Positions 2,224 through 60,103 of a stretch of DNA of 64,000 nt are shown piece by piece. A program made the position numbers and the translations under genes. The notes below the pieces were generated by a model that worked only from the letters and a program-made list of their open reading frames with translations, did no database searches and was not told the origin of the DNA. Source of the stretch: Macrophomina tecta (lineage: Eukaryota; Ascomycota; Dothideomycetes; Botryosphaeriales; Botryosphaeriaceae). The stretch covers positions 3,224,001-3,288,000 of the forward strand of contig JAKSGN010000003.1 of the NCBI GenBank assembly GCA_024180945.1, in the 5' to 3' direction. Numbering within the stretch: position 1 is the stretch's first letter; each line of letters begins with the position of its first letter.

Positions 2224-3304
2224 AAGAATAAATACAACTGGACTGCCGTAGACTGGAGCACCGTTTCAGAAAAGCTCTCCGTCTCCAATGTCTACAATCA
2301 AGGCATTATCCCGAGTACCAGCTACGGGCTACACATGGGTTCGGCGACGCAAAGCATATCGGGCAGTCTCTTCCTCGGCGGCTATAACCAGTCTCGCGTA
2401 ATCTCCACGCCCGTAACCGCCACAAACAACAGCTTCATCTCCCTGGCCGGCATCCCCCTAGCCGTGCGCGCCGACCCTGGTGTCCCCTACTTCTACCTCC
2501 CCGGCGCGGCCTGCGACAACAACGTCGCCGCCCACCTCCCAGTAACCTACCCGCCAAGCTACGGCCTCTGCCCGTGGGGCACGACCGACGCGTCCTACAC
2601 GCGTCCGCTCACAAGCCCACGCCCTAAGCTCCACCTTCAGCGGCACTTCCTCCTTCACGGCGCCAGTATCCATCACCCTCACTCTCTCCTTCCTCATAGC
2701 CTCTGGCGGCCCAACCTCCTTCTTCCCCTGCCGCCCCTACACGCCCGCCGCCGCCGCCTCCACCGCCCTGCAGGCCCCGATCCTCCTCGGCCGGGCTTTC
2801 CTGCAAGGGCGCCTTCCTCGCGCAGAACTCACAGAGTGGGGCAGCGTGGCTAGCGCAGGCGCCGGGCCCGGCGTTCGCAGCAGAGAACGTCAAGAGCACC
2901 GAGGTGTAGGATGATGGGCTGCTGGTGCAGACGAACGATGCGCCCGGGTGGGCGGAGACGTGGGGAGGGGTGTTGAGGCCGTTGGTGCAGGATTCTGCTG
3001 GGAGGATGCGCAGCAGCGAGCTGGGGGATGGTCGGCGGAGGCCCAGGCGAAGGTTGGGTTGGGTGCGGCGATTGGGGGACTGGCGTTGGTGGTGCTGGTC
3101 GTCGGCGCGCTGTGGTGGTGGCGGAGGAGGAAGAGGCAGGCGGGCGTTGTGGCGGCGCGGCCGGGAATCCGGCAGATGTGGGTGTTGGATGGCGATTTGA
3201 GAGGCAGGGAGGTCGCGGAGTTGAGGGCTGAGACGCAGAAGAAAGAGCCGCGGGAGCTAGAGAGCCATTATGTGATGGAGATGGACAGCGGTGGCGGGGG
3301 CTAG
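2224..3304 (+). pseudogene. Truncated, frameshifted aspartic-protease-like membrane protein
   Basis: Homology starts abruptly with YNWTAVDWSTVS just after a stop and the TA-rich block. It continues through LFLGGYNQSRV, which resembles the C-terminal lobe of fungal pepsin-like (A1) proteins. The frame changes near 2620 (then SSTFSGTSSFTAPVSITL), again near 2805 (then GAFLAQNSQSG), meets a TAG after AENVKSTEV at about 2906, and changes again. The last frame carries a membrane helix (AAIGGLALVVLVVGALWWW) with a basic cytoplasmic RRRKR stop-transfer, ending at 3304. The N-terminal lobe with the first catalytic Asp is missing. At least three frame breaks and one stop make this a dead gene. Introns could explain one break at most. 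Confidence 0.7.
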
Positions 3305-3492
3305 CGGGGAGGCCAGCGTGACGGTGGTGGCAGGCTGGGTGATAGATTTCGTTGGCCGGGTTTGGGTTGCGGCGGCCCTCTTCAATGTGGCTTTCTTCCA
3401 GTGTCACGGGTGTTGAGTAAGACACGGAGGACTTGAATGTGAATGACTGAATATCAATGCGTCCGAAAATAGTCTAGCGTGATTCCGATTAT
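3305..3492. other. Short spacer without recognised features
   Basis: Nothing recognisable between the pseudogene and the LTR-like block. Confidence 0.3.
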
Positions 3493-3960
3493 CTGTAGAA
3501 TGCCATCGATCAACTGCTCGCCGGCGTTGCGTGGCCATGCCGCCGCCCGTAGCAGCCTCCTGCCTGTGACGCAATGACGTCTCTTCTGCTTTTTCCGGAT
3601 ACTAGCCGAGCATTTTCAGCCAATCAGAAATGAGAATTGCTCAGTTGATCTGGGGCACTTTGGTGATTTGGAGCGCCTTGGTGATCTGGAGCACATGCCT
3701 CTCATATATAAACCCCCTCCCCCTCCGCTGAACGAGTTTCTTTCTTTCTTCTTCATCTACTTCTGAGGGTAACGAGGGACTCTTAACTGAGCGGACTCTT
3801 CAGAAGTAGATCAGGGTTTTTGGACCTTCCGAGTCCTTTTTCCCCTTCCTTTAGCTGAAGGTAACGAGGGCCCTTCACTGGGCGAACTCTTCAGCTGAAG
3901 GAAAAGCAAAAACGTAGATCATGGGTTTTTACTCTTCGGAGGTTTTCCCCATTGTAGGCT
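3493..3960. repeat. LTR-like sequence with two diverged hairpin units
   Basis: A TATA-like catatataaacc at about 3707 is followed by pyrimidine-rich sequence and then two related units. Unit 1 has ACTTCTGA (3759-3766) pairing with TCAGAAGT (3800-3807) around ggtaacgagggactctt. Unit 2 has AGCTGAAG (3853-3860) pairing with CTTCAGCT (3889-3896) around ggtaacgagggcccttc. Each is followed by gtagatca-ggg-ttttt. A TATA box followed by duplicated stem-loops resembles the R/U5 part of a fungal LTR, possibly a solo LTR. No internal retrotransposon genes, second LTR or target duplication was seen. Confidence 0.35.
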
Positions 3961-4267
3961 TTTCGTCGAACAGCTCGCCATGAGCGGGCATTCGAGGAAG
4001 AGCTGGCGTTGATGGTGTCCTGATTGCGTTTGGCCGTGCTTGGCTGTCCCTGCACGCCCTCAGTGGGCCTTCGTCCTCCAATAGCACCCGCTCACCAGCG
4101 CTTGTTTACCATCATCCCCGTGCAGCGGGCCAGCCATGAAGTCACGCATGGTGTTGGCATGCCACGCTCTTCAGGCTCCGTCACTCGCACACGCGCGCCC
4201 ATTCGCCGAACAATCTCAGATCGTCAGCGCAGCCGTCGCGTCACTGCGTCGAAGGACGAAACAGCCA
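3961..4267. other. Spacer 3' of the C6 regulator
   Basis: About 300 bp without a gene; it includes the 3' flank of the minus-strand regulator. Nothing else seen. Confidence 0.3.
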
Positions 4268-5899
4268 TCATGGCGGCCCTCTGAGCCTGCACTGGGCGAC
4301 CTTATACCAGGCCCGCATGCTGTTAAGGAATTTGCTAACGGCGTCACCAGTCTCACCTTGGCAGAGGACACTCATGATCAGCTCTCGATCTTCCCCGCCC
4401 TGTTTCGCTGCGTCGCAAAGGACACTCAACGCAATACCGATGGGAAAGGACGACGCATTCGCGTTCCAGATGCCCATTTCTTTCTGGAAGAAGTAAGAAG
4501 CAGAACGGGCAATCTTCCGAGCATACACGCGTTCGTCGAACCGCGGAGGTAGGAGCTGCGGTTCCACGCAATCCTCGTTCGCCAGGGCCAGGGTCCTCGA
4601 CACAAGCATGCACGTCACCCAGTACAAGTATATGATGTGGGCGATAGCGATGTCTCCAGTGTCTGCCACGTGGGCGAGGCTGTCGAGGTCCAGGTTTGCA
4701 ACGGCGTTGATGTTGAGAACCCATTCCGTGAGCTGCACGTCCAGCGCCCAGCAGCTTTGTAGGACTCGCTCGGCGAGGAGGTGCTTCTCTTGCTGGCTCC
4801 GGGCACTCTCGATACTGTCAAGGTTCTCCAGCACAGCCGGAATCTCTACCATGTCTAACAGAGCATCCTTTGGAGTCTTCGGCATGGCCAGCCATGGCAC
4901 CTCCTTCCATTCAGGGTTGCTCAGCACGGTCCGCCTCCTAGACCTTATGGCCGAGATTATCTATAATGGTCGTCAGTCCCTGCATACCAAGGCTGGCCCG
5001 AGCAACACTTACCGTACTGAGGCGTCCGTCGGCAAAGAGCCGGTGCGCAAGGCCAGACATGTGCGCGTGCGGACCTCGCGCCTTCAAGAGAATAAGCTCA
5101 CCCTCGACATGAATACTCCAGCTGCGCGCTTGAGCAAACTTGTCCTGATCATTCGCGCCAAAGAGCATCTGCAGGGAAGCCGGTCAGTGGGCAGCCGGGC
5201 AAAGACGTTGCGTACCATACCTCTAAAAGAGCAAGGAATCGTGTGGCGACGAGGACTTCCTCTCGCCGGGAGATGTCAGGCGACTGTACAGCAAGAGCCA
5301 TGGCCCTCAGGGCACGACCGTGGCAGGCGATGCCTTGCTGGATCATCCAAGGATCGCCAAGCCGCTGGCCAACTGTTCCCAGGCTCATCGCAAGCAGTGC
5401 ATGTTTGAGCGTGTCGTCGCGGTGGTAGAGACAATCCACGGCACCCAGCCAGCTTCCCGTAGTAAACTGGCCCTGGAAAGCGGTGAAGGCCCGGCCGAGA
5501 GGCAGATACGTTTCCCAGAACAAACCGAGCGACTTCAGCTCGTAAGCCGAGCGCGTAAGCGCGTCGGGCAGGACGATGCCGCGGGGCGGGAGATCGAAGG
5601 CCTGTGTTGGACGCGGGCAGGGAGTTTGTGACGGGCCAGCAGCCTGACTGGTCGTCACCAGCGCGTTCGGCGAGGCAGCGGCGGCGTGGTTGATGAAGAT
5701 GCACTGGCGCTCGTAGCCTGCACACTGCAGACCCGACTTGGTGCACTGCCCGCAGGCCGGTCGCTGGAGATCGCACTGCCGAATCGCGTTAGCTTTGCGC
5801 GAGCCGCCTCTGGTGCCGTGATGCTGGACGGAGCCTTACCCCCTTCTTGCGCTTCCTGCACGTTGCGCAGCCTTTGGACCTGCCAGGCACGCCTACCAT
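4268..5899 (-). CDS. Zn(II)2Cys6 transcription factor
   Basis: Nuclear fungal-specific regulator, about 487 aa. Four exons join in frame: 5899-5840, 5775-5221, 5168-5013, 4960-4268, with introns of 64, 52 and 52 bp (GTAAGG, GTATGG and GTAAGT donors; CAG, CAG and TAG acceptors). The first intron splits the zinc cluster. Spliced, the cluster reads CATCRKRKKGC then CDLQRPACGQCTKSGLQC sharing one Cys, a perfect C-X2-C-X6-C-X6-C-X2-C-X5-C motif. The C-terminal half matches the fungal_trans_2-like helical region (RRRTVLSNPEWKEVPW). The start at 5899 is the first ATG and sits 10 residues before the first Cys. It lies downstream of, and parallel to, the P450 and could regulate it; that is inference. 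Target unknown. Confidence 0.85.
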
Positions 5900-6561
5900 G
5901 GCGCGCAAATTGAAGCCTGTGCCGGAGTGCTGTGGGTTTGGGACGGGAGCGAGTCCAGCCACCGCGCTTCTTATCGTCTCCTTCTCAGAGGTCCAGGGCC
6001 AGGTTGTCTGCAGTGCGGAGTCTGGCACGGTATGTAAAGGCTTGCCGCTGCAGTCTTCGAGCTCTTGCCCAATGCCACGGGGGGTTTTCAATGCAGCATT
6101 AATCTTGCAGCCTGGTGCAGAAGCTTGCAAGGCTCTTGTGAGCTGCGCCCCGGAAGCCCAAAATCGATGACGATGAGTCGGATCCGCCGCCCGGCTCAGG
6201 CCTGGGCTTCCGCGCCACTGCCACGCTAGGCGGCAACGGGAAGCATTCTGCGCCAGACACTCTGCTCCACCGCACGAGCTCTGCACAGGCACAGCCCGAC
6301 AACGGATGGGGCGCGCTTGGCATCGTCAAGTCCCTCCGTCGTCGTTTTGCACGTCAACGATCGCCCTCGTTTTCTTCCGTCATGAGACGCTTCGCCCACG
6401 AAGTCTGCAAGCTGCGCGGGCAATGCTTCTCCAGAGACAGCTACCGGAGGTAAAGCCTCTGTAAAGCTGAGCTCTCCTCTCTCAGACGCTGTCAGCACCG
6501 CGGGGGTGCGGGATTGACGGCGGACAGGGTGCGGGGTGCGGAGGATTGGGCGCCGGCGGTA
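5900..6561. other. 5' region of the C6 regulator
   Basis: Promoter/5' UTR space of the minus-strand regulator. No gene was supported. Confidence 0.35.
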
Positions 6562-6660
6562 GAGAAGGAAGAGGAGGAAGAGGAGGAAGAGGAGGAAGAG
6601 GAGGAAGAGGAGGAAGAGGAGGAAGAGGAGGAAGAGGAGGAAGAGGAGGAAGAGGAGGAA
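6562..6660. repeat. GAGGAA hexanucleotide microsatellite
   Basis: About 16 near-perfect tandem copies of gaggaa (purine-rich on the plus strand) between the P450 stop and the regulator start. Open frames across it are artefacts of the repeat (Leu-Phe-rich). Confidence 0.9.
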
Positions 6661-6813
6661 GGGCAGGTGTGGGCGAGATGTAGGGGAAAGTGATGAATTG
6701 ACGAGGCGATTTATCATCTAGCTATGACTTAGAGCAGCGGCGAGCGGCAGACGAGCACGCCACCACGCGTAATGAATTCCTTGGTGCCGTAGACCTCCTC
6801 TGCTTACTGACAC

Positions 6814-8726
6814 TCAAGCCCGCCTCTGCCTGATCCGAACATTCAGCCCCGGCACCGTCAACGACACCGTATCCATCAGCCGCTCCTCATACCTCGCCGC
6901 CCTCTCATCCTCGACCAACTCGAACTCAAACTCCCAAAACAGCCTCGCTACCACCATCCTCAACTCCATCTTCGCGAAATTCTTCCCCGCGCAGTTTGCC
7001 GGACCGCGCGAAAACGGCATGAACCCGCCCTCCTCCGGCTTCGCGCGCCCTTCCGTCCATCGCTCCGGCAGAAACTCGTCGGGGCGCTCGAAGTTGCGTG
7101 GATCGCGCTGCACCGTGTACGGCGGGACGGCGACGGTGACATTTCCCGGGATCCAGACGTCGCCGATTTGAAGCCCTTCGGGCGGCGTCAGACGCGGCAT
7201 TGCGGCGGGTGCGGGTGGCCAGAGGCGCATGGTTTCGTTGATGACGGCGTCGAGGCAGGGGAGCGACTTGATTGCGTCGTAGGAGAACGAGGCGGCGCCG
7301 GCGGGGCACGCGGCGTCGAGGGAAGCTTGGAGGGATTTTTGGGCTGCAGGGTGGCGGCAGAGGTAGTAGGTGAGGTTGGTGAGGGCGGCGAGCGTGGTGT
7401 CGCTGGGGATGGTGGTTAGTGAGGGCTTCAATGAGGAAGGGAAGTGGCGGACGGGGACGTACCTTCCGGCGGCGATGATGAGACGAGAATCCTCGTGAAG
7501 AGCCTGAACGCCAGGCGGAGCAGACCGGTCGTTCTCGTACTTGGCCTTGAGGATCCAGGACATGATGTCGGCCGGCTCGGTGTCTTTGTTGAGCGTCTGG
7601 AATGGCGCGTCAGAGATGTGCACGCGTTGGCTGGCTGTTCTCCCTACCTTTTCCTTCTCCTCAACAGCACCAGCGCAGTATTTCTGGAAATCTTGGATAG
7701 CAGAAGCGGCGCCAGGGATGGCTGTAAGCAGGCTAATGAGCCACGGTACAGGGGTCATTAGTCCGACAGCGTACATGGAATCGTGGACGGCGGCAATTCC
7801 TGGGTGGTCTTCGCCACTGTCCAGGGTGCCGAAACCTTGGCCCAGACCAACATCTCCCATGACATCGAATGCGAAGAAAGAGGCCCACTTTTGGATGTCT
7901 ATGGCCTGGTCTTTGCGAGCCTGGAGCTGTTTGATGAGCTTGTCACAATGGATAGCCAGGCGAGGAACGTAGTTGTCGAGAGCTGCGACGTTGTTCAGCA
8001 CCGCGGCATGGAAAGGCTCATAACTACGACGTGCTCACCTCTCATGCTGAAAGCACGATCCCAAGCCTTGCGGCGAGCGCGGTGAAGGTCAAGGTCACGG
8101 GTCTGATTGAGGGAGCAGTACTCGGGGTTACCGCCGGTCTGAGCGTACCAAGCGGCCTTGACGCAGCGCATTGGCGGGCCTGTGCCTGTGAGCATCTTCA
8201 ATCCACTCTTCCAAAGTGGATGTCCTACCGTACACGAGCGGAATTGCCTCCGCTTTGTTGACTGAGAGGTAGCGAGGACCTGCAGACGTAAGCCGGGGGG
8301 TCATTGGCTGCTGGAGTTTAGCGGCCTACCGATACGGATTATATCACCATACTGCTGATGCAGCTTCTGGACTTCCTGGCAGAGCTTCATGTCCTTGGCT
8401 GCCAGGCTCATCGCATAGAACTGGGAGAGGGCGGCGAGTTTGGGACCGGGAAATTTGCGCAGACGGTGGAAGTAGAGGCGGTAGACGAGCAAGCTGACGA
8501 AAAAGCCGACATTGAAGAGCGTAGCGGAGAGAGCTGTCCGCCCCAATGCGTGGAGAGGGCGGAGCAGGGGATTCGAGAAGTTGTAGTAGAGCAGCGCAGC
8601 GACAGACCCGAGATAAGCGAAAACAAGCTGCCAGGGGTGCGCGTCAAACTCGACACCGTCATGCCTGCTCACAGCGAGATGAGAAAGGCTTCCAAGGATC
8701 AGCGGTGTTGCCACTGAGGACGCCAT
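6814..8726 (-). CDS. Cytochrome P450 monooxygenase
   Basis: Membrane-bound heme-thiolate monooxygenase of about 567 aa. Five exons: 8726-8330, 8279-8229, 8185-8039, 7982-7463, 7402-6814; all junctions keep frame (introns 50, 43, 56 and 60 bp). Several hydrophobic segments within residues 30-100 precede the KFPGPKLAALS hinge. Then come the C-helix-region DLDLHRARRKAWDRAFS, the I-helix AAGSDTT (completed only after splicing), the K-helix ETMRLWPPAP, the PERW motif, and the heme loop FMPFSRGPANCAGKNF with the axial Cys. All hallmark motifs are intact. Start at 8726 (MASSVATP) is chosen because upstream in-frame sequence lacks family character. The fold resembles fungal benzoate-hydroxylase/secondary-metabolism P450s; substrate not inferable. 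The next gene downstream is a C6 regulator. Confidence 0.9.
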
Positions 8727-9791
8727 GGCAGGCGAGAGTCTCTGCCCAGAGGGTGCGCAGACGGAGAGGTAGGAGGGAAGCAACGAGGCGGGCGGGGGAA
8801 AACGGAAGTCGCAGCCGCGATTTAAAGCGGGAGCACGAGTGGCATTTCGAACGGGGATGCAGGCCGGCCGCTTGGTGGTTTCCACTTACTGCCGCGCCGC
8901 AAAGTGATCCCATTGGCCAGAATCTTCCTTCTTCCCACGCGTTCTAGGGAGATGCTCGCTTGTGGCCCCGCTAGCAGCCCAGTCTGTACAAAGCCCCGCA
9001 CCGGCCGTGCAGCAGACAAGTAACTCCGCATGCCTTTTTAATGCCCAGGTCGGACCACCGTCCGTGGCATCGACGAGTAACTCTATGCCTGGTATTTCAT
9101 GACCAGCCGCAAATTCCCAAGCGCTCTTCAGACGCTTCACCACGTAGCCGGTGGGGGGCCTCGGCTTCAATAACTTGCGAGCCGCCTGTTGCCTCTGCAT
9201 TTTGCTTGCCTTTTCAGGATTCCTTCCCTTAGCACCTATGGCAGGTTTTGCTGCAGAGGTACAACACTGCAAGCAAGTTCATCAGCCTCATCATCCTCTT
9301 GCGCGAAATTGTTCAGCTTGTGAGCTCGGGGAATCGGAGCAGTGCTCCAAGTGCTGTTGTCATCGATTTCTTCGACCAGCTTCGCTCATTCGAATTTCCA
9401 CGGATAATTGGGCGTGGTACTGCTCCCCATTAATAGCGAGGAATGGCCGATACGCTGCAAACGTGGAGCAAGAGCAAGGACGCAAAGGAACACAGTGTGG
9501 TTGGGTTCACACAAGCCAATGAGCAGGCAGTGGAAGCAGCCGCCCGGACGTGAATGTAGGGCAGAAATGGTGAATGGCGGCTTCAACTACCATGGAGCGG
9601 GCCTGTTGCTGGCGTGACAGAGCTGCCCCTCGAAGCAGCGATTGCCGTTCTGGTAGGCCTGCCGTTCACGACGTGGAAGGCACCGCGGCCATGCCGCCGC
9701 CACCTCACCTTCTACCAGCTCTCACACTCGACACCCGCCGTTCCAACAGACACCTAACCCCACCCTTAAGAACTCTCTCCAGCTGGTTGAG
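8727..9791. other. Divergent intergenic region
   Basis: Promoter space between the minus-strand P450 and the plus-strand unknown gene. Open frames here overlap on both strands without domain or splice support. Confidence 0.4.
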
Positions 9792-44799: not shown

Positions 44800-46545
44800 T
44801 CAACAGCTACATCTGCGCAAGATCTCTACGATAGATCGTTGAGTCTCCAACGACTCATCTGATTTCTCACCCCCCACCTCATCATTTGTAAGACACCGAG
44901 ACACCACGTCGGCGAAGTTCTGCCCAGCAGTATGTGACAGCCTGGCCATCTCAGCCGGATCATATCCGAATTCCTCAAGCGAGGGTAGAGATAGCATCTT
45001 CCCGTCCCGTACCGCGTCTTGGATCTGTTGGTCGAGATCCGGACAATCAGAGTGGAGATCCACAAGCCTCTTCCATAAGCCAAGCTCCAAGAGTACACAG
45101 CCGAGGGAATACAAGTCAAAGGATTTCCTGGTCGGTTTCCTGTCCGCTCCTCTTGCTGAAGGGTGCCTGTACAGATCAGCTTGCAGAGCTGTTTGCGGCT
45201 CCCGGGTCAGCATCTGGCCATCTTCAGTGTCCGGCCGGGCGTTCTCAAATCCGACCAGGTAGGCTGCTGTACCAAGGCAATGCTCCAGAGACGCGCCAGC
45301 GTTCGTGATGAAGAGTATGTTCTCCGACCGAATGCTTTTGTGTAGCCATCCGGCCGTGTGAAACTGAAGCATCGCCTCTGCCAAGCCCAAGGCAATGTCG
45401 AAACGACGGCTTAGTGAAGCTTGTGGTTGCTCTGAAATAATTTGGTAGAGTGACTTGATCTCCATGCGCGCGTTCCTTCTGGAAAGCGAGGATATGTCGT
45501 ACACCAGAGCGAAGGTGTCAAGCTCTTTCCAGGAGATCAGGCCCAAGCAAGGCAGGACAGGGAAGACGCCTCCATCCATTTTTCTCAGAAGAACGGCTAA
45601 AGCCCTCATTTGGGGCTCCACGAGGTCCCATGTGTCTTCGTCTGCAGTCCTCCATTCAATCAAGACTTCGGTATCGCGATATCTGCCCAACTCAATACCA
45701 CAACCCTCCAGCCGCATTGCCGGAGGCTGATGCTTGAGCTTTTTCGCGCTGAGAAGCTTGAGCTTCAAGCCCATTTGAACCAGTTTTGCTGCATCAACCA
45801 TGTGCTCTCGATTGCTTTTGCCAACAATCGACATGATTTGCTTTAGCTCTGCGGCTGCTGCGATTTGTCGGTCGTTGAACGAATGCTGTGGATAGAGCAG
45901 CTGCTGGATGGCCTCTATCTCTGCTGAAGTTGTTGACCTGGAGACTAGGTCCCTTAGCAACGCTTCAGTAGCCAGCTGTAGGCGCTTCTGGTCGGCAGTA
46001 TCCAAGAGGCTATAGAGGCGGTTGTTGATCTCCTCTATCTCGTTGATGATTCGAAGAGCCTGGGTCTTACCGACTGCAGCCCATTTGAGCCTTTTGAGTG
46101 TCCCATTCTGTGATTGAATAATCTTACTTCCGGCTTGAGTGATCTCCGGCTTGAGGCGATGGAGCAGCTTCCCTAACGTGCTATTGTCTGAAGCCTCGTC
46201 TTCCACGTCCTTGACATTGATGACCTCCTCAGGAATGCGCAGCTTGTACTTCTCTTCCAAAGCCTCGGCAGAAGTCATGAGTGCCTTTTGCTGATTGAGG
46301 AACTTCGCAGCAAGATTCCAATTGACCTTTTCCTGTGGTGAACTTGTTTGGATACCGGTCCGCTCTCCCCATTCCCACAACCGATGTCGCTCCCAGACCA
46401 GTTTCGAACGCACAGAATCGCCTTCGTTGCCCATATTTTGGGCGGTGTAAATAAACTTGTATGCTTCGAGGCATCCTTCAAAAGCTTCGAAGGCCAAGGA
46501 GATGAAGCCAACAACCGCGGCGGCTCCCTCAAGACCGGATGCCAT
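44800..46545 (-). CDS. HeLo-domain protein with C-terminal pseudokinase-like (DUF7580-type) domain
   Basis: 581 aa, single coding exon. Residues 1 to about 215 match the HeLo (prion-inhibition/propagation) helical domain: MASGLEGAAAVVGFISLAF, EAFEGCLEAYKFIYTAQNM and the diagnostic RSKLVWERHRLWEWGERTGI. HeLo domains such as HET-s oligomerise and perforate membranes. From about residue 295 a kinase-like fold follows: FALVYDISSL, LAEAMLQFHTAGWLHKSIRS, ENILF, AYLVGFENARPD, then DLYSLGCVLLELGLWKRL. The HRD motif is HKS (no catalytic Asp) and DFG is GFE, so it is a pseudokinase. The frame extends upstream, but that sequence contains GTAAGC...CCACCAG and is better read as a 5' UTR intron, so Met at 46545 is chosen. 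Head to head with the kinase-ankyrin gene. Confidence 0.85.
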   Translation of the reverse strand: MASGLEGAAAVVGFISLAFEAFEGCLEAYKFIYTAQNMGNEGDSVRSKLVWERHRLWEWGERTGIQTSSPQEKVNWNLAAKFLNQQKALMTSAEALEEKYKLRIPEEVINVKDVEDEASDNSTLGKLLHRLKPEITQAGSKIIQSQNGTLKRLKWAAVGKTQALRIINEIEEINNRLYSLLDTADQKRLQLATEALLRDLVSRSTTSAEIEAIQQLLYPQHSFNDRQIAAAAELKQIMSIVGKSNREHMVDAAKLVQMGLKLKLLSAKKLKHQPPAMRLEGCGIELGRYRDTEVLIEWRTADEDTWDLVEPQMRALAVLLRKMDGGVFPVLPCLGLISWKELDTFALVYDISSLSRRNARMEIKSLYQIISEQPQASLSRRFDIALGLAEAMLQFHTAGWLHKSIRSENILFITNAGASLEHCLGTAAYLVGFENARPDTEDGQMLTREPQTALQADLYRHPSARGADRKPTRKSFDLYSLGCVLLELGLWKRLVDLHSDCPDLDQQIQDAVRDGKMLSLPSLEEFGYDPAEMARLSHTAGQNFADVVSRCLTNDEVGGEKSDESLETQRSIVEILRRCSC

Positions 46546-46883
46546 ACTTGCTCTGCTCTGGTGGCTCAGTAAACAAAAAAGGGATGGAATCAAGATTAAC
46601 TTAAATGTAAGCAAGGCTGAGTTCGGGAAACCAGAGATGCGGGGCTTACGGGCGGACAAGAGCTGAAAATGGCGCCCCCCAATCGCAGGTGCGTCGCACG
46701 ACCCACTCGGCTTTCCTTCCTGGGCCACAGGCAGACGCCTCACAGCGTGATTTGCCGTGCTGCGCCTTCAATTCCGGACATTCATAAGCCTCAGCCTCGA
46801 GCATCGCGCCCAGATAACTCGCCTGGTCGCTGTCGCCGGCGCGGCCGATCCTCGTCTCTCTCTCATCCGAGTCATCGCTCATC
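46546..46883. promoter_or_regulatory. Head-to-head promoter of HeLo-pseudokinase and kinase-ankyrin genes
   Basis: Only 338 bp separate the two start codons; it must contain both promoters and a likely 5' UTR intron of the HeLo gene (minus strand, GTAAGC near 46650 to CCACCAG near 46556). No obvious TATA box. The arrangement favours joint expression. Confidence 0.6.
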
Positions 46884-49800
46884 ATGAGTTTCTTCTCTAA
46901 CCATTTCCGCCCCAAGAGGCCCAGCGGTCGGCAGCCAGCACCGGTACACATTCCAGCGGACCAGGCTGAAGCAGCATTGGGCAGGTTGTGTCAGCCTCCC
47001 TTTACCGCGGAAAAATTCCAGAGGATCGCAGATCTTCTTCTACAGCTGGACATATGTCAAGGCAGGCTTCATGATGATGTTAAAAATTGGCGGATGAGGC
47101 CGCGCATCTATACGGTGCTGCGTAACATTGCCCCTGAGCGCCATGGAGATTACATGGATCGCTTCGCGGACGGGAACTACATTGATTTCCACCTACCATT
47201 CGACAATCGCACTCTGCCAGGATTTCTCAGCAATGGCGTAATGAGAGACAATTTCTTCAATTTCCAGCACCATGTACTGAGCCCTGAAGCACGCTCGCTC
47301 GAAATCGAAGGGGGAGAACACCAACTCATTGCGGGGAGCGCCGACGCGCATTTCTGGCCCCTTGAAATGCTCGGACAAGGAGGATTTGGGTGAGGAAGCC
47401 AATATCTTCTGATGTTCGGAGCTGACCGGTACGAAATCATGTATAGGCAGGTCGACAAAGTCGTTAGCAGACTCAGCTGCAGCACTTATGCGCGAAAACG
47501 GATTCCACGACGTAAGGATTCAGCAGTCAATTTAAGACGACAGAACGACTTCGTCAAGGAACTCGAGATTTTGAAGAAGCTCTCACATCGCCATTTGGTA
47601 ACCTACGTTGGCTCATACACGGACAACCACTTCATGGCCTACTTGATGCGCCCCGTGGCGATGTGGAATCTACTTGAATTTTTGAACTGGCTTGGTGACC
47701 CTCTGAATCAAGCAAGGAGAAGTCAGGTTCAGCCTTTCTATGGTTGCCTTGCTAGTGCTGTTGGATACCTTCATGATCAGAGCATCAGACACACTGACAT
47801 CACGACACGCAACGTGCTTGTGGGGGAGCAGGGGAAGATCTGGCTGAGCGACTTCGGCACTGCAACGGACTTCTCGCAATCTGGTCGGAGCACAACAAAC
47901 GACCTGATTCCTATCAGCATCGAGTACAGTGCTCCGGAAGTTGCTCATCGTCAAAAGAGGAACAAGGCGAGTGACATGTGGTCTTTGGGCGTTGTTTTCT
48001 TGGAGATTACAACAGTCCTGCTCGGAAATAACCTTGGGAATTTCGGGACTTTCATGGCCAAAAACGCGAAAAACAGAGACTATCCACAAGCTATCTGGGC
48101 AAACCTCCCAACGGCCTTGGATTGGCTTGCAAGAATCATGTCTCCACACGTTGAGTCCGCCAACGAGGCCATAACATGGGTGAGGAGCCTCTTACAAGAC
48201 GATCCGAAGAACAGACCCACGGTGAAGAACCTGATGGTAGATATCCGGCAAACTCCATCGTTCCGGCAATTTTGCTGTCTGGACTGTTGGGACGAATTCG
48301 ATGCCGGCAAGTTTGAATTCGAAACTCCTTTGAACCCCGAAGGGTTCAATGAGACAATGAAGCATGCCACCGCGGCTGAGGTGTCAGCACGTGCTGCTGC
48401 CCTTTTTCAACCCCAGTATCCTCCGGCTCCCATAGACGCTGACCGCTCCAAATCCATCGAGCATTGGATTGCAGATTCCACAAGCGCCACTGTCGATACA
48501 AGCATCATTCCTTTTCCTCACTGGGTGGAAAACAGGGCAGTGGACCAATATCAACCTCTGGGACGGCTCTCTGAAAGCATAGATGAGACTGAGAATTCTC
48601 TCTCCTCAACCATCGCAACAAAAAAGAAACCCAGATACGCGAAAGAACCACCGCAGAGGCCAATGCCTGGGGCCTTTCCTGAAGAAGATGTGGAGATTGA
48701 TTCTGGTTTTGGGTATGTTGTTGAGGATGATCGTACTTCAGATGGCGAAGATCCCTCTCCCAAGGATGAACCTATCCTCGCTCAAGGGTTCGTCGTTGAG
48801 CAAGACTCTTCAGGTTCTGAGACCGGTGATTCTGAAGTGTCCATCAATCTACAAGCGTGTCATATCGTGCTCCAGCGCAAAGATGAACCACAGCCGCTTG
48901 TGCAGGTAGACAGCAGAAATCAGGGGGCCAGTCACCGCTTAGGAGAGCTTTGGGAACTAATGACGAACGACTCAGACCAGCAAGGCTATGAAGAGGACGA
49001 CTCTTCAATTGGTCGGGAGTTGGGACCACGTAACAGACCAGATTGCGAAGCTTTGGCTGCGGAAAGTGGCAATTCGTTGATGCTGCATCAATCAAGCTAT
49101 GATCAAGGAAGGCGAAAACCGCGAGCTATTTCAGAGAGGTCCCATGATCTTCCAGAGACATCATTCAGTGGAGATTTTGAGGGATTTCAGCAACGAGGTG
49201 ATGGTGCAAAAGGTCGACAACTTTATCTCACTTGGCCGTCTCAAGAGCTCGAGAGTAAGGTGCCCGCGAACCAAGCTCTGCCACCCCCTCCGAGGTCGAT
49301 TGATGAACCTGCTCACTACTCACCGCCCCTTCCTCAGCGTGGGCACGTCCTCCAAATTGAATATCGACACGAGGATCGGAGTCGATCTCCGTCAATCGCC
49401 AGTACCGTCTCCGGTGATGTTGTCTCCGAAAATGGCTCAGGTGAATCAGACACACTCCTGACTATTCCGTCACTCGAGATGCAGCCGTTCGGTGGAACGA
49501 CTGAACCACCAGTGCCAAAAATCATGCAAAAAGAAGATCAGTCGTCCTACACACCTGAAGAAAATCCTCCTGTGGAGGACTTCACACACGAAGCCGAACC
49601 AGATACCTTAGCTACCGAAATTCCACCTAAGAATTTGCAATCACAGCAACCTCATCGCACCAGAGAAAAAGTGCACTGGGGCCAAGTAACCATAGAAGAG
49701 ATCCCACGAGATTCTGATGATGAAGAAGAACCATCCGCCGGCCGAAATGAGCACCGTCATGCCAACAAGCAAGCTACAGTAGAAGATGCGAAAGACGCCT

Positions 49801-51122
49801 CTGAACTTGCGCCTGAGCAAAACCCAGAACGGCAAGACTGGGCGCAGACAAACTATGCAAGCGGTTTCGGTCCTAGTGATATCCTTCCGATGGAGCCTCT
49901 ATTTGTCGAAGGCCCTACGAGGACGGCTGCACCCGCACATCAATCTTTGCAGTCCAGAGCGCATTTGAAAGCACTGAAGAAAGATAGGAAGCGGCTACAT
50001 CAATCCTCAAAACCAAAAGACCCCTCGGAAGAAGCAGCTCAGCAGCTGAAAAGAGCGAAGAGAGTTCCGAAGCCTGCACCTTCGCCAACTCTCTTCATGG
50101 AAGACGCGCGCAAAGCTGGCCAGCACGTCAAGAGCATTGCAACGAGTCAGATGACATCGCGCACAAAGCAGGCCTTGGCGGGTTGTAACATCAACCGATG
50201 GGTGGACCAGACCAACAAGCTCCTCGAACGGTACTGCGCTCGCGGATCCGCCACCGCAGTCCGCACGCTGCTCGCGCAGAAGTGCAACCCCGGCACCAAG
50301 GCCAAACCGCGGCGGGACCCGCTCCTAAAAGCAATCCAGGGCGCCAGCGCGAGACACAGCAAAGTGGTGCGCGCTCTTCTCCAGTACGACGTCGACGTGC
50401 ACGTCGTCTGCCCCCGCAATTACAACAAGACGCCGCTGCACCTGGCAATCGAGAACGACGACAACGACGGCTACGTCAACATGGTGCACGACATGGTCTT
50501 CGCCGGCGTGGACCCGAACGCGAAAGACCGCAACGGCGAGTGCGCCCTGGAGAAGATCTTCAAGGGGCCGGAGTCGCGCGGGCTGGAGAAGTACCGCTTG
50601 GACGCGCTGGCCTTGCTGCTCCTGTCAGAGGCCAAGGGCGGCACCGAGGTGAACATCCGCGTGCCCGCCACGCGCGACACGCCGCTGCATCTGGCCGTCC
50701 GGCGCCGCAGTCCGATGGCGGCGGCGATGCTGCTGCACAAGGGTGCCGACGTCAACGCGGTGAACGCTTCCGGCATGACTCCGCTGCTATCGGCTGCGTT
50801 GATGTGGAGAGGCGGCAGTGGAGGCACGCTCGCGCAGATGGCGCCAGATGACGAACAGATGTTGGATTTGCTGACGAGCCAGCCGGGCATCAGGCTGAAC
50901 GAATGTGCTGGCATGCAGCGCCGTACTGCACTGCATCATGCTGTGGTCGCTGGTGTTCCGCTTGCGGTTGAAATTCTGCTCGAGAAGGGCGCAAGCTTGA
51001 GGCAACGAGATGCTGATGGGAAAACTGCTATGGGATTGGTTGCATCGGGTAGAGCAAGAGAAACGAGTGATGATAAAAGAATACGGGCACTTCTGAGTGG
51101 CGCGCTCCAGTTAAATGCCTAG
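46884..51122 (+). CDS. Protein kinase with C-terminal ankyrin repeats
   Basis: 1393 aa from exons 46884-47389 and 47447-51122. The 57-bp intron interrupts the glycine loop, restored as LEMLGQGGFGQVDKVV. The kinase domain (about 160-480) is complete: Lys186 (YARKRI), ELEILKKLSHRHLVTYVGSY, catalytic loop SIRHTDITTRNVLV with Asp286, DFG Asp304 (WLSDFGTATDF), APE in YSAPEVAHRQ, and SDMWSLGVVFLEI. HTD replaces HRD. The N-terminal 160 residues are a fungal region unknown to me. Residues 480-1080 are acidic and disordered. From about 1085 come ankyrin repeats (YNKTPLHLAIENDDNDGY, RDTPLHLAVRRRSPMAAAML, ADVNAVNASGMTPLLSAALM, RRTALHHAVVAGVPLAVEIL). Probably an active Ser/Thr kinase that senses or binds partners through the ankyrins; see the HeLo neighbour. 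Confidence 0.9.
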
Positions 51123-58251: not shown

Positions 58252-60103
58252 ATGAGGGCTCAAGCGCTGCGCCGCTCCGCCAGATACGGTAAACCACCAC
58301 AGCTCGCCTCAGCGGACGAACATCAGCGCTGAACACACCAAGGCTTTCTCCGCTACCCCCGCCACATCCCGCGGTACCGTCTCTTCCCCGGCCATCCCTT
58401 CTACCGGGAAGAGCTCGAAGAGCTGAACGGCCACCGCGGAAAGAGCAAGGGCTCCTCATCGGACGATGGCGGCGGCGGCGGCGGCAGCGAGGACTGGAAA
58501 TCAAAACTGGTCGAATCCTCAATCACCACGCTCGCCTCCGTCGTCATCCTCGGCGGCGTCGGCTTCGCCTACCAGCGCTACTACAAGGCGCAGGTGCTGT
58601 CCAAGATCGAAAACGCCTTCCACGAGGGCTTTTCCTCGCTCGAGCGGGCGGCGTTGGCGCGCCACTCGGAGGGCAGCGTCATCGATCCAACCAAGGAGAT
58701 CCCCGAGGCCGCTTGGTGGATCCAGCGCGACGAGCAGCGTATGATCGATGACATTCTCGCCGGCCGGACTCAGGGCCATTATTACTTGATCACCGGCGAG
58801 AAGGGCACCGGCAAGACGAGCATGCTACTGGAGGGCATGCGCAAGGCCAACGGCGAGGGCGTCGCGTTGCTCGAGGCCCATGGCGATCCGGAGATCTTCC
58901 GCGTGAGGCTCGGCAAGGCGCTGGATTTCGAGTTCCATGAGGACTACATTGGGAGCTTGTTCAGTTTCAAAGGGCCGAGAGATACAACCGCTCTGCTGGA
59001 TATTGAACGGGCTTTCAACAAGCTGGAGAAGGTTGCATTGAAGAGGAAAGAGAAGGCGAAGAAGTCGTTGGTGCTGGTCATCAACGGCATCCACTTGCTC
59101 AAGGATGACGAGGATGGAAGGAATATGCTGGAGCTGATCCAGCAGAGAGCGGAGATGTGGAGTGCGAGCAATTTGATTACACTGGTGTTGAGTAGCGATG
59201 ACTATTGGATCTCGGAGAGGCTGATCCAGCAGGCTACTAGAATGCAGGTCCTCAACATTCCGGACGTGCCGAGGGATGTAGCAGTCAACGCGCTAAAGAA
59301 CTTCAGGTTCAGGTTCAAGGACGAAGACGTTCCGGTGTCTGTTTTACACCAGGTGTACAGCAAGGTACTCCCGAACGTGCATCCGAGGATGACGTAAAGA
59401 TCGCTGACAGGTGAGACAAGGTCGGCGGGCGCTTGAGATTTCTGAACCAGGTCGCACGAGCTCCAGACATGATGGATGCATGCGAAAACATCTGCAAAAA
59501 AGAGAAGATCTGGCTTCTCAACCAATGCTGGATCCTGGGGTAAGCTTATGTCAGGCTTCCAAAAAGCATCTCTTGCTGACGTGTTGCAGAGAGGATATGG
59601 ACGACGATGTTATGGACCAACAGAAATTCTGCGTATGTGGAGCCGGCAGATACACCTCCCAATTTCCACTAACACCTGGGTAGGCTGCTGCTATGGTTCT
59701 CGCATCAGCGTTGGTGGATCAGGAAGAAGAGACGGGTGTTACTGATCCGACCAAACTTCCATCGGTTGAGGTGCATCAAGCCCGCCAAATCATGACGCGA
59801 GCCGACTTCCTTCAGCAAATGGACCATATCAATATCGTTGCAATTGATTCAAATGCTATGGTCCGGGCCGACTCGGTTCCCATGCAGAACGCCTTCCGAG
59901 AAGTTTGCAAGCAACCCGGATTCAAGGAACACCTCGAAGCTACCATCAACCGGATCAGCGCGATCGAAAGCCTAGGCCGAACGAGGGAATTAGTTCTAAA
60001 AGATCTTGTGGAGAACGGGGAATACCAACTGTCAGTTAAGAATGGGAAGGGATACGAGACGGAAACCATCTCGATGAGAGTGAAATCCACAGAGGAGGCA
60101 TAG
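58252..60103 (+). CDS. AAA+ P-loop ATPase, probably mitochondrial inner membrane
   Basis: 546 aa from five exons: 58252-58288, 58343-59364, 59421-59539, 59590-59632, 59684-60103, all frame-consistent. The N-terminus is Arg-rich without acids (MRAQALRRSARY, then FLRYPRHIPRYRLFPGHPFY), a good mitochondrial presequence. One membrane helix follows (SSITTLASVVILGGVGFAYQ). Walker A is YYLITGEKGTGKTSMLLEGM. The Walker B-like strand SLVLVINGIHLLKDDED lacks a clear catalytic DE pair. A sensor-like strand LITLVLSSDDYWISERL follows, then a helical C-terminal part (VGGRLRFLNQVARAPDMMDA; GEDMDDDVMDQQKF). Exon 1 (37 nt) and exon 4 (43 nt) are tiny. Two introns end in AAG. The family is widespread in fungi; function not established to my knowledge. 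Confidence 0.8.

Follow-up and report, generated by a model that had tools for sequence, protein, structure and literature searches.

A head-to-head HeLo-pseudokinase and kinase-ankyrin gene pair conserved in filamentous fungi: a candidate kinase-relayed cell-death module

Do a HeLo-pseudokinase gene and a kinase-ankyrin gene that lie head to head in Macrophomina tecta form one functional unit, and could that unit kill cells through a kinase relay, as RIPK3 and MLKL do? The question is raised by a pair found in a stretch of 64,000 nucleotides (contig JAKSGN010000003.1, positions 3,224,001 to 3,288,000; G000:C3:3224001-3288000 in our numbering), hereafter the window, from a genome assembly of 54.1 Mb in 37 contigs. 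The comparisons presented here indicate that the two genes very probably constitute one functional unit, and we give a probability of about 0.5 to the reading in which this unit is a kinase-relayed, regulated cell-death module that acts via the pseudokinase loop and works like RIPK3-MLKL. The pair is arranged as follows, in window coordinates:

44800..46545, minus strand: HeLo-pseudokinase gene, intronless open reading frame of 581 amino acids, stop codon at 44800-44802
46546..46883, no strand: divergent intergenic region, 338 bp between the two ATG codons
46884..51122, plus strand: kinase-ankyrin gene, exons 46884-47389 and 47447-51122, 1393 amino acids

Linkage of the two genes across fungi

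An earlier note on this DNA had described two divergent genes with a common region of 338 bp, and the coordinates of the open reading frames bear this out, the two genes standing head to head with their ATG codons 338 bp apart. The closest protein match of the HeLo-pseudokinase comes from Macrophomina phaseolina (Dothideomycetes), with 99% identity. The start proposed for the kinase-ankyrin gene is backed by the orthologues of Lasiodiplodia and Diplodia, which open with a similar N-terminus; the MS6 record of this gene begins further in.

Homologues of both proteins were tabulated with the longest contig of each protein cluster, and genes were paired when their contig sizes were exactly equal. 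The comparison covered the two genes of the pair and their adjacency, and orientation was read in the window. When the best 120 of 126 HeLo-pseudokinases were compared with the best 120 of 143 kinases, 18 same-contig pairs were found. Because many lichen kinases had no listed HeLo partner, a profile search was performed with seven divergent HeLo-pseudokinases (alignment A1), which yielded 105 matches, 92 of them new, and six of the new ones were located on the contig of a listed kinase. The total therefore amounts to at least 24 same-contig pairs, a lower bound since the best 120 matches were considered, the longest contig alone was given and partners may be unlisted. Near-miss pairs, with sizes 1-10 bases apart, numbered five in the first comparison and four in the second, which sets the chance expectation at about 0.2 exact matches per comparison (about 0.25 in the first). 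Both members were named in 18 of the 24 pairs, and in all 18 they belonged to the same species.

The linked pairs span Dothideomycetes, Eurotiomycetes, Sordariomycetes and Lecanoromycetes; these four classes were confirmed for the window species and for three among the eight species listed below, and the labels of the remaining linked species are those that we presume to apply. Sharing a chromosome-sized contig is weak evidence, so adjacency rests on consecutive gene numbers and on four short contigs. Among the nine species with positional numbers on both sides, eight had consecutive ones:

Aspergillus bombycis: ABOM_006045/006044
Colletotrichum camelliae: CcaCcLH18_08464/08465
Diatrype stigma: SLS62_011292/011293
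Xylographa trunciseda: MMC11_004684/004683
Pleopsidium flavum: M1830_007499/007500
Xanthomendoza: Q9186_002145/002146
Seirophora lacunosa: LQ348_006051/006052
Calogaya: Q9221_001990/001989

A. campestris, with both genes on the same contig and numbers far apart (314689 and 301286, which we take to be protein identifiers independent of position), was left out of the nine. On the four shared contigs of 10.5-12.0 kb, subtraction of the coding sequence from the contig leaves a gap between the genes of at most 4.7 to 6.3 kb. In Elasticomyces elasticus, a single gene model (P0226, 1339 amino acids) comprises a HeLo domain without its first helix, a DUF7580 pseudokinase, tetratricopeptide repeats and a kinase, the latter preceded by what is, by eye, a similar N-terminal domain. 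This model may represent a genuine fusion, or the gene predictor may have joined two neighbours, and either way both types are adjacent there. The earlier note had named a neighbourhood not conserved in close relatives as grounds for refutation; contig identity and gene numbers showed instead that adjacency is kept across the four classes.

Linked members were found among the closer relatives: of the best 120 kinases the last linked one is match 82, and of the best 120 HeLo proteins in the first list the last linked one is match 58. Linkage thus appears to characterise a single orthologous clade and not every HeLo-pseudokinase. The mirror-tree correlation of the 25 pairs, window included, was 0.93, as compared with a mean of 0.72 and a maximum of 0.88 in within-class shuffles, none of which reached 0.93 (0/2000), with class labels mostly presumed and six pairs pooled as one group. 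Little weight is given to this correlation, which mostly reflects shared descent.

Domains, catalytic residues and the pseudo-activation loop

The domains and motifs on which the reading of the pair depends are located in the window as follows:

45961..46515, minus strand: HeLo domain, residues 11-195 (PF14479 3.9e-27; HET-s profile match 5.4e-19)
44803..45708, minus strand: pseudokinase domain, about residues 280-581
45334..45342, minus strand: HKS at the HRD position, residues 402-404 (codons checked)
45244..45252, minus strand: GFE at the DFG position, residues 432-434 (codons checked)
45205..45207, minus strand: T447, candidate phospho-acceptor in the pseudo-activation loop (Ser/Thr in 207/208 homologues)
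46884..47389, plus strand: exon 1 of the kinase-ankyrin gene, unnamed N-terminal domain, end inside the glycine loop
47390..47446, plus strand: intron of 57 bp, GT-AG
47448..48236, plus strand: intact kinase domain (exon-2 part) with K186, D286 and D304 (PF00069 1e-33)
50235..51002, plus strand: ankyrin repeats (PF12796 7.2e-24 and other ankyrin models)

The HeLo assignment passed the check by profile that had been suggested for it. Indeed, PF14479 covers residues 11-195 at 3.9e-27 (95.8 bits against a cut-off of 23.2), HET-s is found in the PDB by the HeLo-pseudokinase profile at 5.4e-19, and all 80 members of alignment A2 match PF14479 with E-values no higher than 0.001. A degenerate kinase makes up the C-terminal half, with a match to DUF7580 at 1.1e-7, above the cut-off of that family, and to Pkinase at 2.4e-5, below its own. 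In the AlphaFold2 (AF2) model, a long N-terminal helix is predicted at residues 3-38, including a putative membrane segment, with a hydropathy of 1.67 for the best 19-residue stretch. T447 sits 13 residues past GFE in a poorly defined loop, and the predicted local distance difference test (pLDDT) score of residues 447-450 is below 50.

Catalytic positions were compared in 209 HeLo-pseudokinase rows and in 120 kinase homologues plus the window protein, linked and unlinked alike. Four rows (P0324, P0326, P0327 and P0328) had been dropped from an initial 213 HeLo-pseudokinase rows; according to the precomputed Pfam list, they combine HeLo with ankyrin repeats and have no kinase-like part. Asp occupies both the HRD and the DFG positions in 121/121 kinases, and Lys is found in 106/106 rows that have a residue aligned to K186. 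In the HeLo-pseudokinases, the catalytic HRD Asp is missing in 197/209 rows and present in 12/209, and the metal-binding Asp is missing in 208/208, its column being occupied by Gly in 207/208; across the family, the motif at the DFG position reads Gly, then Tyr or Phe, then mostly Glu or Asp. The T447 column holds Ser or Thr in 207/208 HeLo-pseudokinases (Thr in 172, Ser in 35), the highest Ser/Thr share among columns with at least 70% occupancy, and displays a true Thr/Ser exchange, as compared with the runner-up, T397 (197/209), which is almost entirely Thr. When the four HeLo-ankyrin rows are added, the 447 column reaches 211/212 and Gly at the DFG-Asp column 207/212. Within the 25 linked HeLo-pseudokinases, window included, the split is complete: HRD Asp in 0/25, Gly at the DFG-Asp column in 25/25, and at the 447 column Thr in 24 and Ser in one.

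Judged by these residues, the HeLo-pseudokinase is catalytically dead and the partner kinase intact. Thus, the claims that one product joins a HeLo domain to a kinase-like domain lacking the catalytic Asp, and that the other is a complete kinase (K186, D286, D304) with ankyrin repeats, agree with the PF14479 match, the HKS and GFE motifs, the kinase residues and the Pfam matches. The conserved loop Ser/Thr and the MLKL-like GFE strengthen the idea of a kinase relay beyond what the earlier note contained.

The kinase-ankyrin protein consists, in this order, of an N-terminal domain, the intact kinase, a long linker and the ankyrin repeats. Neither Pfam (up to E 1) nor the sequences in the PDB (up to E 10) yielded a match to the N-terminal domain, which is helical in the AF2 model of the homologue P0185; in the same model, the kinase and ankyrin parts are confident and the linker is mostly below pLDDT 50. 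JAK kinases are the best structural matches of the kinase model, a result that shows kinase identity, nothing more. By Pfam, the partner is a kinase with ankyrin repeats and not a STAND protein, neither NB-ARC nor NACHT being listed for it. Two similar acidic stretches, GFGYVVEDDRTSDGEDP and GFVVEQDSSGSETGDSE, were observed in the linker (window 48690-48860) and can be recognised by eye in the Lasiodiplodia orthologue P0122.

Several other genes with related domains were noticed. At one locus (L033, G000:C2:2468001-2478000), a kinase gene and a DUF7580 gene (3092-4447 (-), 7181-9118 (+)) lie about 2.7 kb apart with an unannotated gene between them; the kinase has DFS in place of DFG and an N-terminal domain that looks, on inspection by eye, to be of the same kind, and the N-terminal part of the DUF7580 product has no Pfam match. 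This locus is possibly a diverged relative of the module. At another (L038), a HeLo match at 4844-5344 lies just upstream of a long frame at 5442-8609 in which a P-loop and ankyrin repeats can be made out by eye, a candidate all-in-one HeLo receptor. A frame of 983 amino acids (L037, 5939-8887) has a partial HeLo match and DUF7580, with an IQ-like stretch recognised by eye in its long C-terminal tail. The window itself also contains an AAA_16-type ATPase frame at 58333-59397 (PF13191 4.7e-12).

How the pair may act

In the reading that we favour, a cue would be detected by the ankyrin repeats and/or the N-terminal domain of the kinase-ankyrin protein, and the intact kinase would be switched on. 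The target of this kinase would be the neighbouring pseudokinase, where it would most likely phosphorylate the conserved Thr/Ser of the flexible pseudo-activation loop (T447 in the window protein), upon which the HeLo bundle would open and its N-terminal helix would enter the membrane, as in HET-S. With a protein kinase as partner and a pseudokinase where HET-S has its amyloid motif, the relay would be enzymatic, in place of amyloid templating. Amyloid relay was considered and set aside: in a simple scan, no RHIM- or PP-like pattern was found in either window protein, and the RHIM core [IV]Q[IVLC]G, likewise missing from both, occurs in 1/24 other linked kinases. The proposal of the earlier note that the kinase switches the HeLo effector gains from the HeLo assignment, the dead and live catalytic residues and the conserved neighbourhood, whereas phosphorylation, with T447 as the target of the neighbouring kinase, HeLo release, killing and the nature of the cue are steps that we infer.

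Several observations weigh against the favoured reading. Conserved adjacency shows co-function and says nothing about the direction of signalling. In the structural search with the pseudokinase, the best matches (top VIA rows) were RAF kinases and not MLKL. Hydropathy near the N-terminus is 1.6 or higher in just 44 of 121 members, some of which have models truncated there. Xylaria multiplex is the exception among the nine species with positional numbers, its listed members being on different contigs (g5846 and g4861), and the members of X. arbuscula are also on different contigs, perhaps of two assemblies. Finally, in the genome of the window, a second HeLo-pseudokinase on contig C5 (L035, with L036) has no kinase-ankyrin neighbour in the 17 kb read, and a second kinase-ankyrin gene on C20 (L034) has no HeLo-pseudokinase neighbour in the 10 kb read; the sequence searches likewise showed none close by.

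The alternative that survives best, although unlikely, retains the functional unit and assigns a different role to the kinase-ankyrin protein, which would restrain the HeLo protein as a guard or antidote, or serve as a scaffold with no catalytic role; killing would then be set free once the kinase is lost or displaced. A toxin-guard pair would likewise predict the linkage; however, both catalytic Asp residues are kept in 121/121 kinases and the loop Ser/Thr is kept in the partner, and catalytic use fits this better than a scaffold does. Marginally less probable still is a conserved signalling pair, involved in fusion, development or a stress response, in which HeLo would be a membrane tether and no killing would take place. 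This would suit the many HeLo-pseudokinase members whose predicted membrane helix is just moderately hydrophobic, but it sits poorly with the strong HeLo match (PF14479 3.9e-27; HET-s 5.4e-19) and with the membrane damage attributed to the exposed N-terminal segment of HET-S.

It is improbable that the locus is a heterokaryon-incompatibility determinant whose alleles kill upon fusion of unlike strains, a function that the earlier note had also raised and that found no support here. Known het determinants include HeLo proteins and gene pairs in tight linkage (het-S), but the M. phaseolina alleles seen, one per gene, are nearly identical to those of the window, with differences at 8/581 aligned residues of the HeLo-pseudokinase and 25/1323 of the kinase-ankyrin protein, and conservation across classes argues for a general function. 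Least probable of all is inherited synteny without common function, given the consecutive gene numbers in eight species, of which the three looked up fall in three classes and the window in a fourth, and the single gene model with both types (P0226).

Comparison with known systems

The favoured reading, a kinase-relayed death module, has its closest functional counterpart in MLKL and RIPK3. In MLKL, HGK replaces HRD and GFE replaces DFG (PMC5104457, PMC6013482), and RIPK3 phosphorylates it at the activation-loop residues T357/S358. The window pair shares with this system a helical killer bundle joined to a pseudokinase, GFE in place of DFG, the missing catalytic Asp, a candidate phospho-acceptor in a disordered pseudo-activation loop, and a separate intact kinase as presumed activator. 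It differs in that the bundle is a HET-S-type HeLo, HKS stands where MLKL has HGK, the fungal genes are adjacent, and, in fungi, ankyrin repeats and an unnamed N-terminal domain are attached to the kinase. The common GFE is suggestive and no proof of orthology, because the fungal family varies at this position. Orthology by fold was also considered: Foldseek placed MLKL (4btf) at rank 5, over 532 columns, but with a root-mean-square deviation of 14.5; MLKL was absent from the 50 VIA rows for the pseudokinase, though absence from a list filled by kinases does not exclude it.

The PDB profile search listed 6lk5 and 6vbz among other kinases at similar E-values. The former, listed as an MLKL protein and presumably of plant origin, also combines a helical bundle with a pseudokinase and was aligned over profile positions 115-492 at 2.5e-5, but this value is no better than those of the ordinary kinases GCN2, DYRK1 and IRAK4. 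RIPK4 and ANKK1 combine kinase and ankyrin repeats in one protein, as the partner does, whereas the fungal protein also has a long linker, disordered for the most part, and an N-terminal domain of a different kind.

NLRs act, via amyloid templating, as the switch of known fungal HeLo killers such as HET-S. The HeLo and sensor genes het-S and nwd2 are adjacent, in Podospora divergently, and their clustering is kept in other fungi (PMC3321046); exposure of a segment of about 34 N-terminal residues of HET-S leads to membrane damage (PMC3531502). As in HET-S/NWD2, and in HELLP/PNT1, a HeLo effector gene adjoins the gene of a repeat-bearing partner, here the putative sensor, and this arrangement is conserved across species. 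HET-S/NWD2 thereby sets the precedent for a HeLo-sensor pair that is adjacent and divergent, although the partner is here a protein kinase and not a STAND/NLR protein, and the effector ends in a pseudokinase and not in an amyloid motif. Fungal gasdermin/protease clusters, as outlined in a review, likewise place the gene of a sensor enzyme beside that of a pore-former, with protease and gasdermin in the positions of kinase and HeLo.

HeLo-like-pseudokinase fusions have already been noted in a 2025 review (PMC12881547), and no description of the paired kinase-ankyrin gene was found in the open-access listings and passages searched. As far as seen, three findings are new: the conserved kinase partner, the family-wide division of catalytic residues into dead and live, and the conservation of a Ser/Thr in the loop. 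The same review asks that the extent of conservation with necroptosis be clarified, and a 2017 paper places the fungal and mammalian amyloid motifs at non-equivalent positions of their pathways. The conserved kinase and HeLo-pseudokinase cassette could provide the missing kinase step, and brings this question within reach of two genes and a few inactivating changes. It is conceivable, and we propose it tentatively, that a conserved cassette of two genes gives filamentous fungi the full necroptotic axis, in which an active kinase acts on the pseudo-activation loop of an executioner made of a helical bundle and a pseudokinase; if so, a death circuit of kinase, pseudokinase and bundle would date back to a history that fungi share with plants and animals, and would not be confined to animals (and plants).

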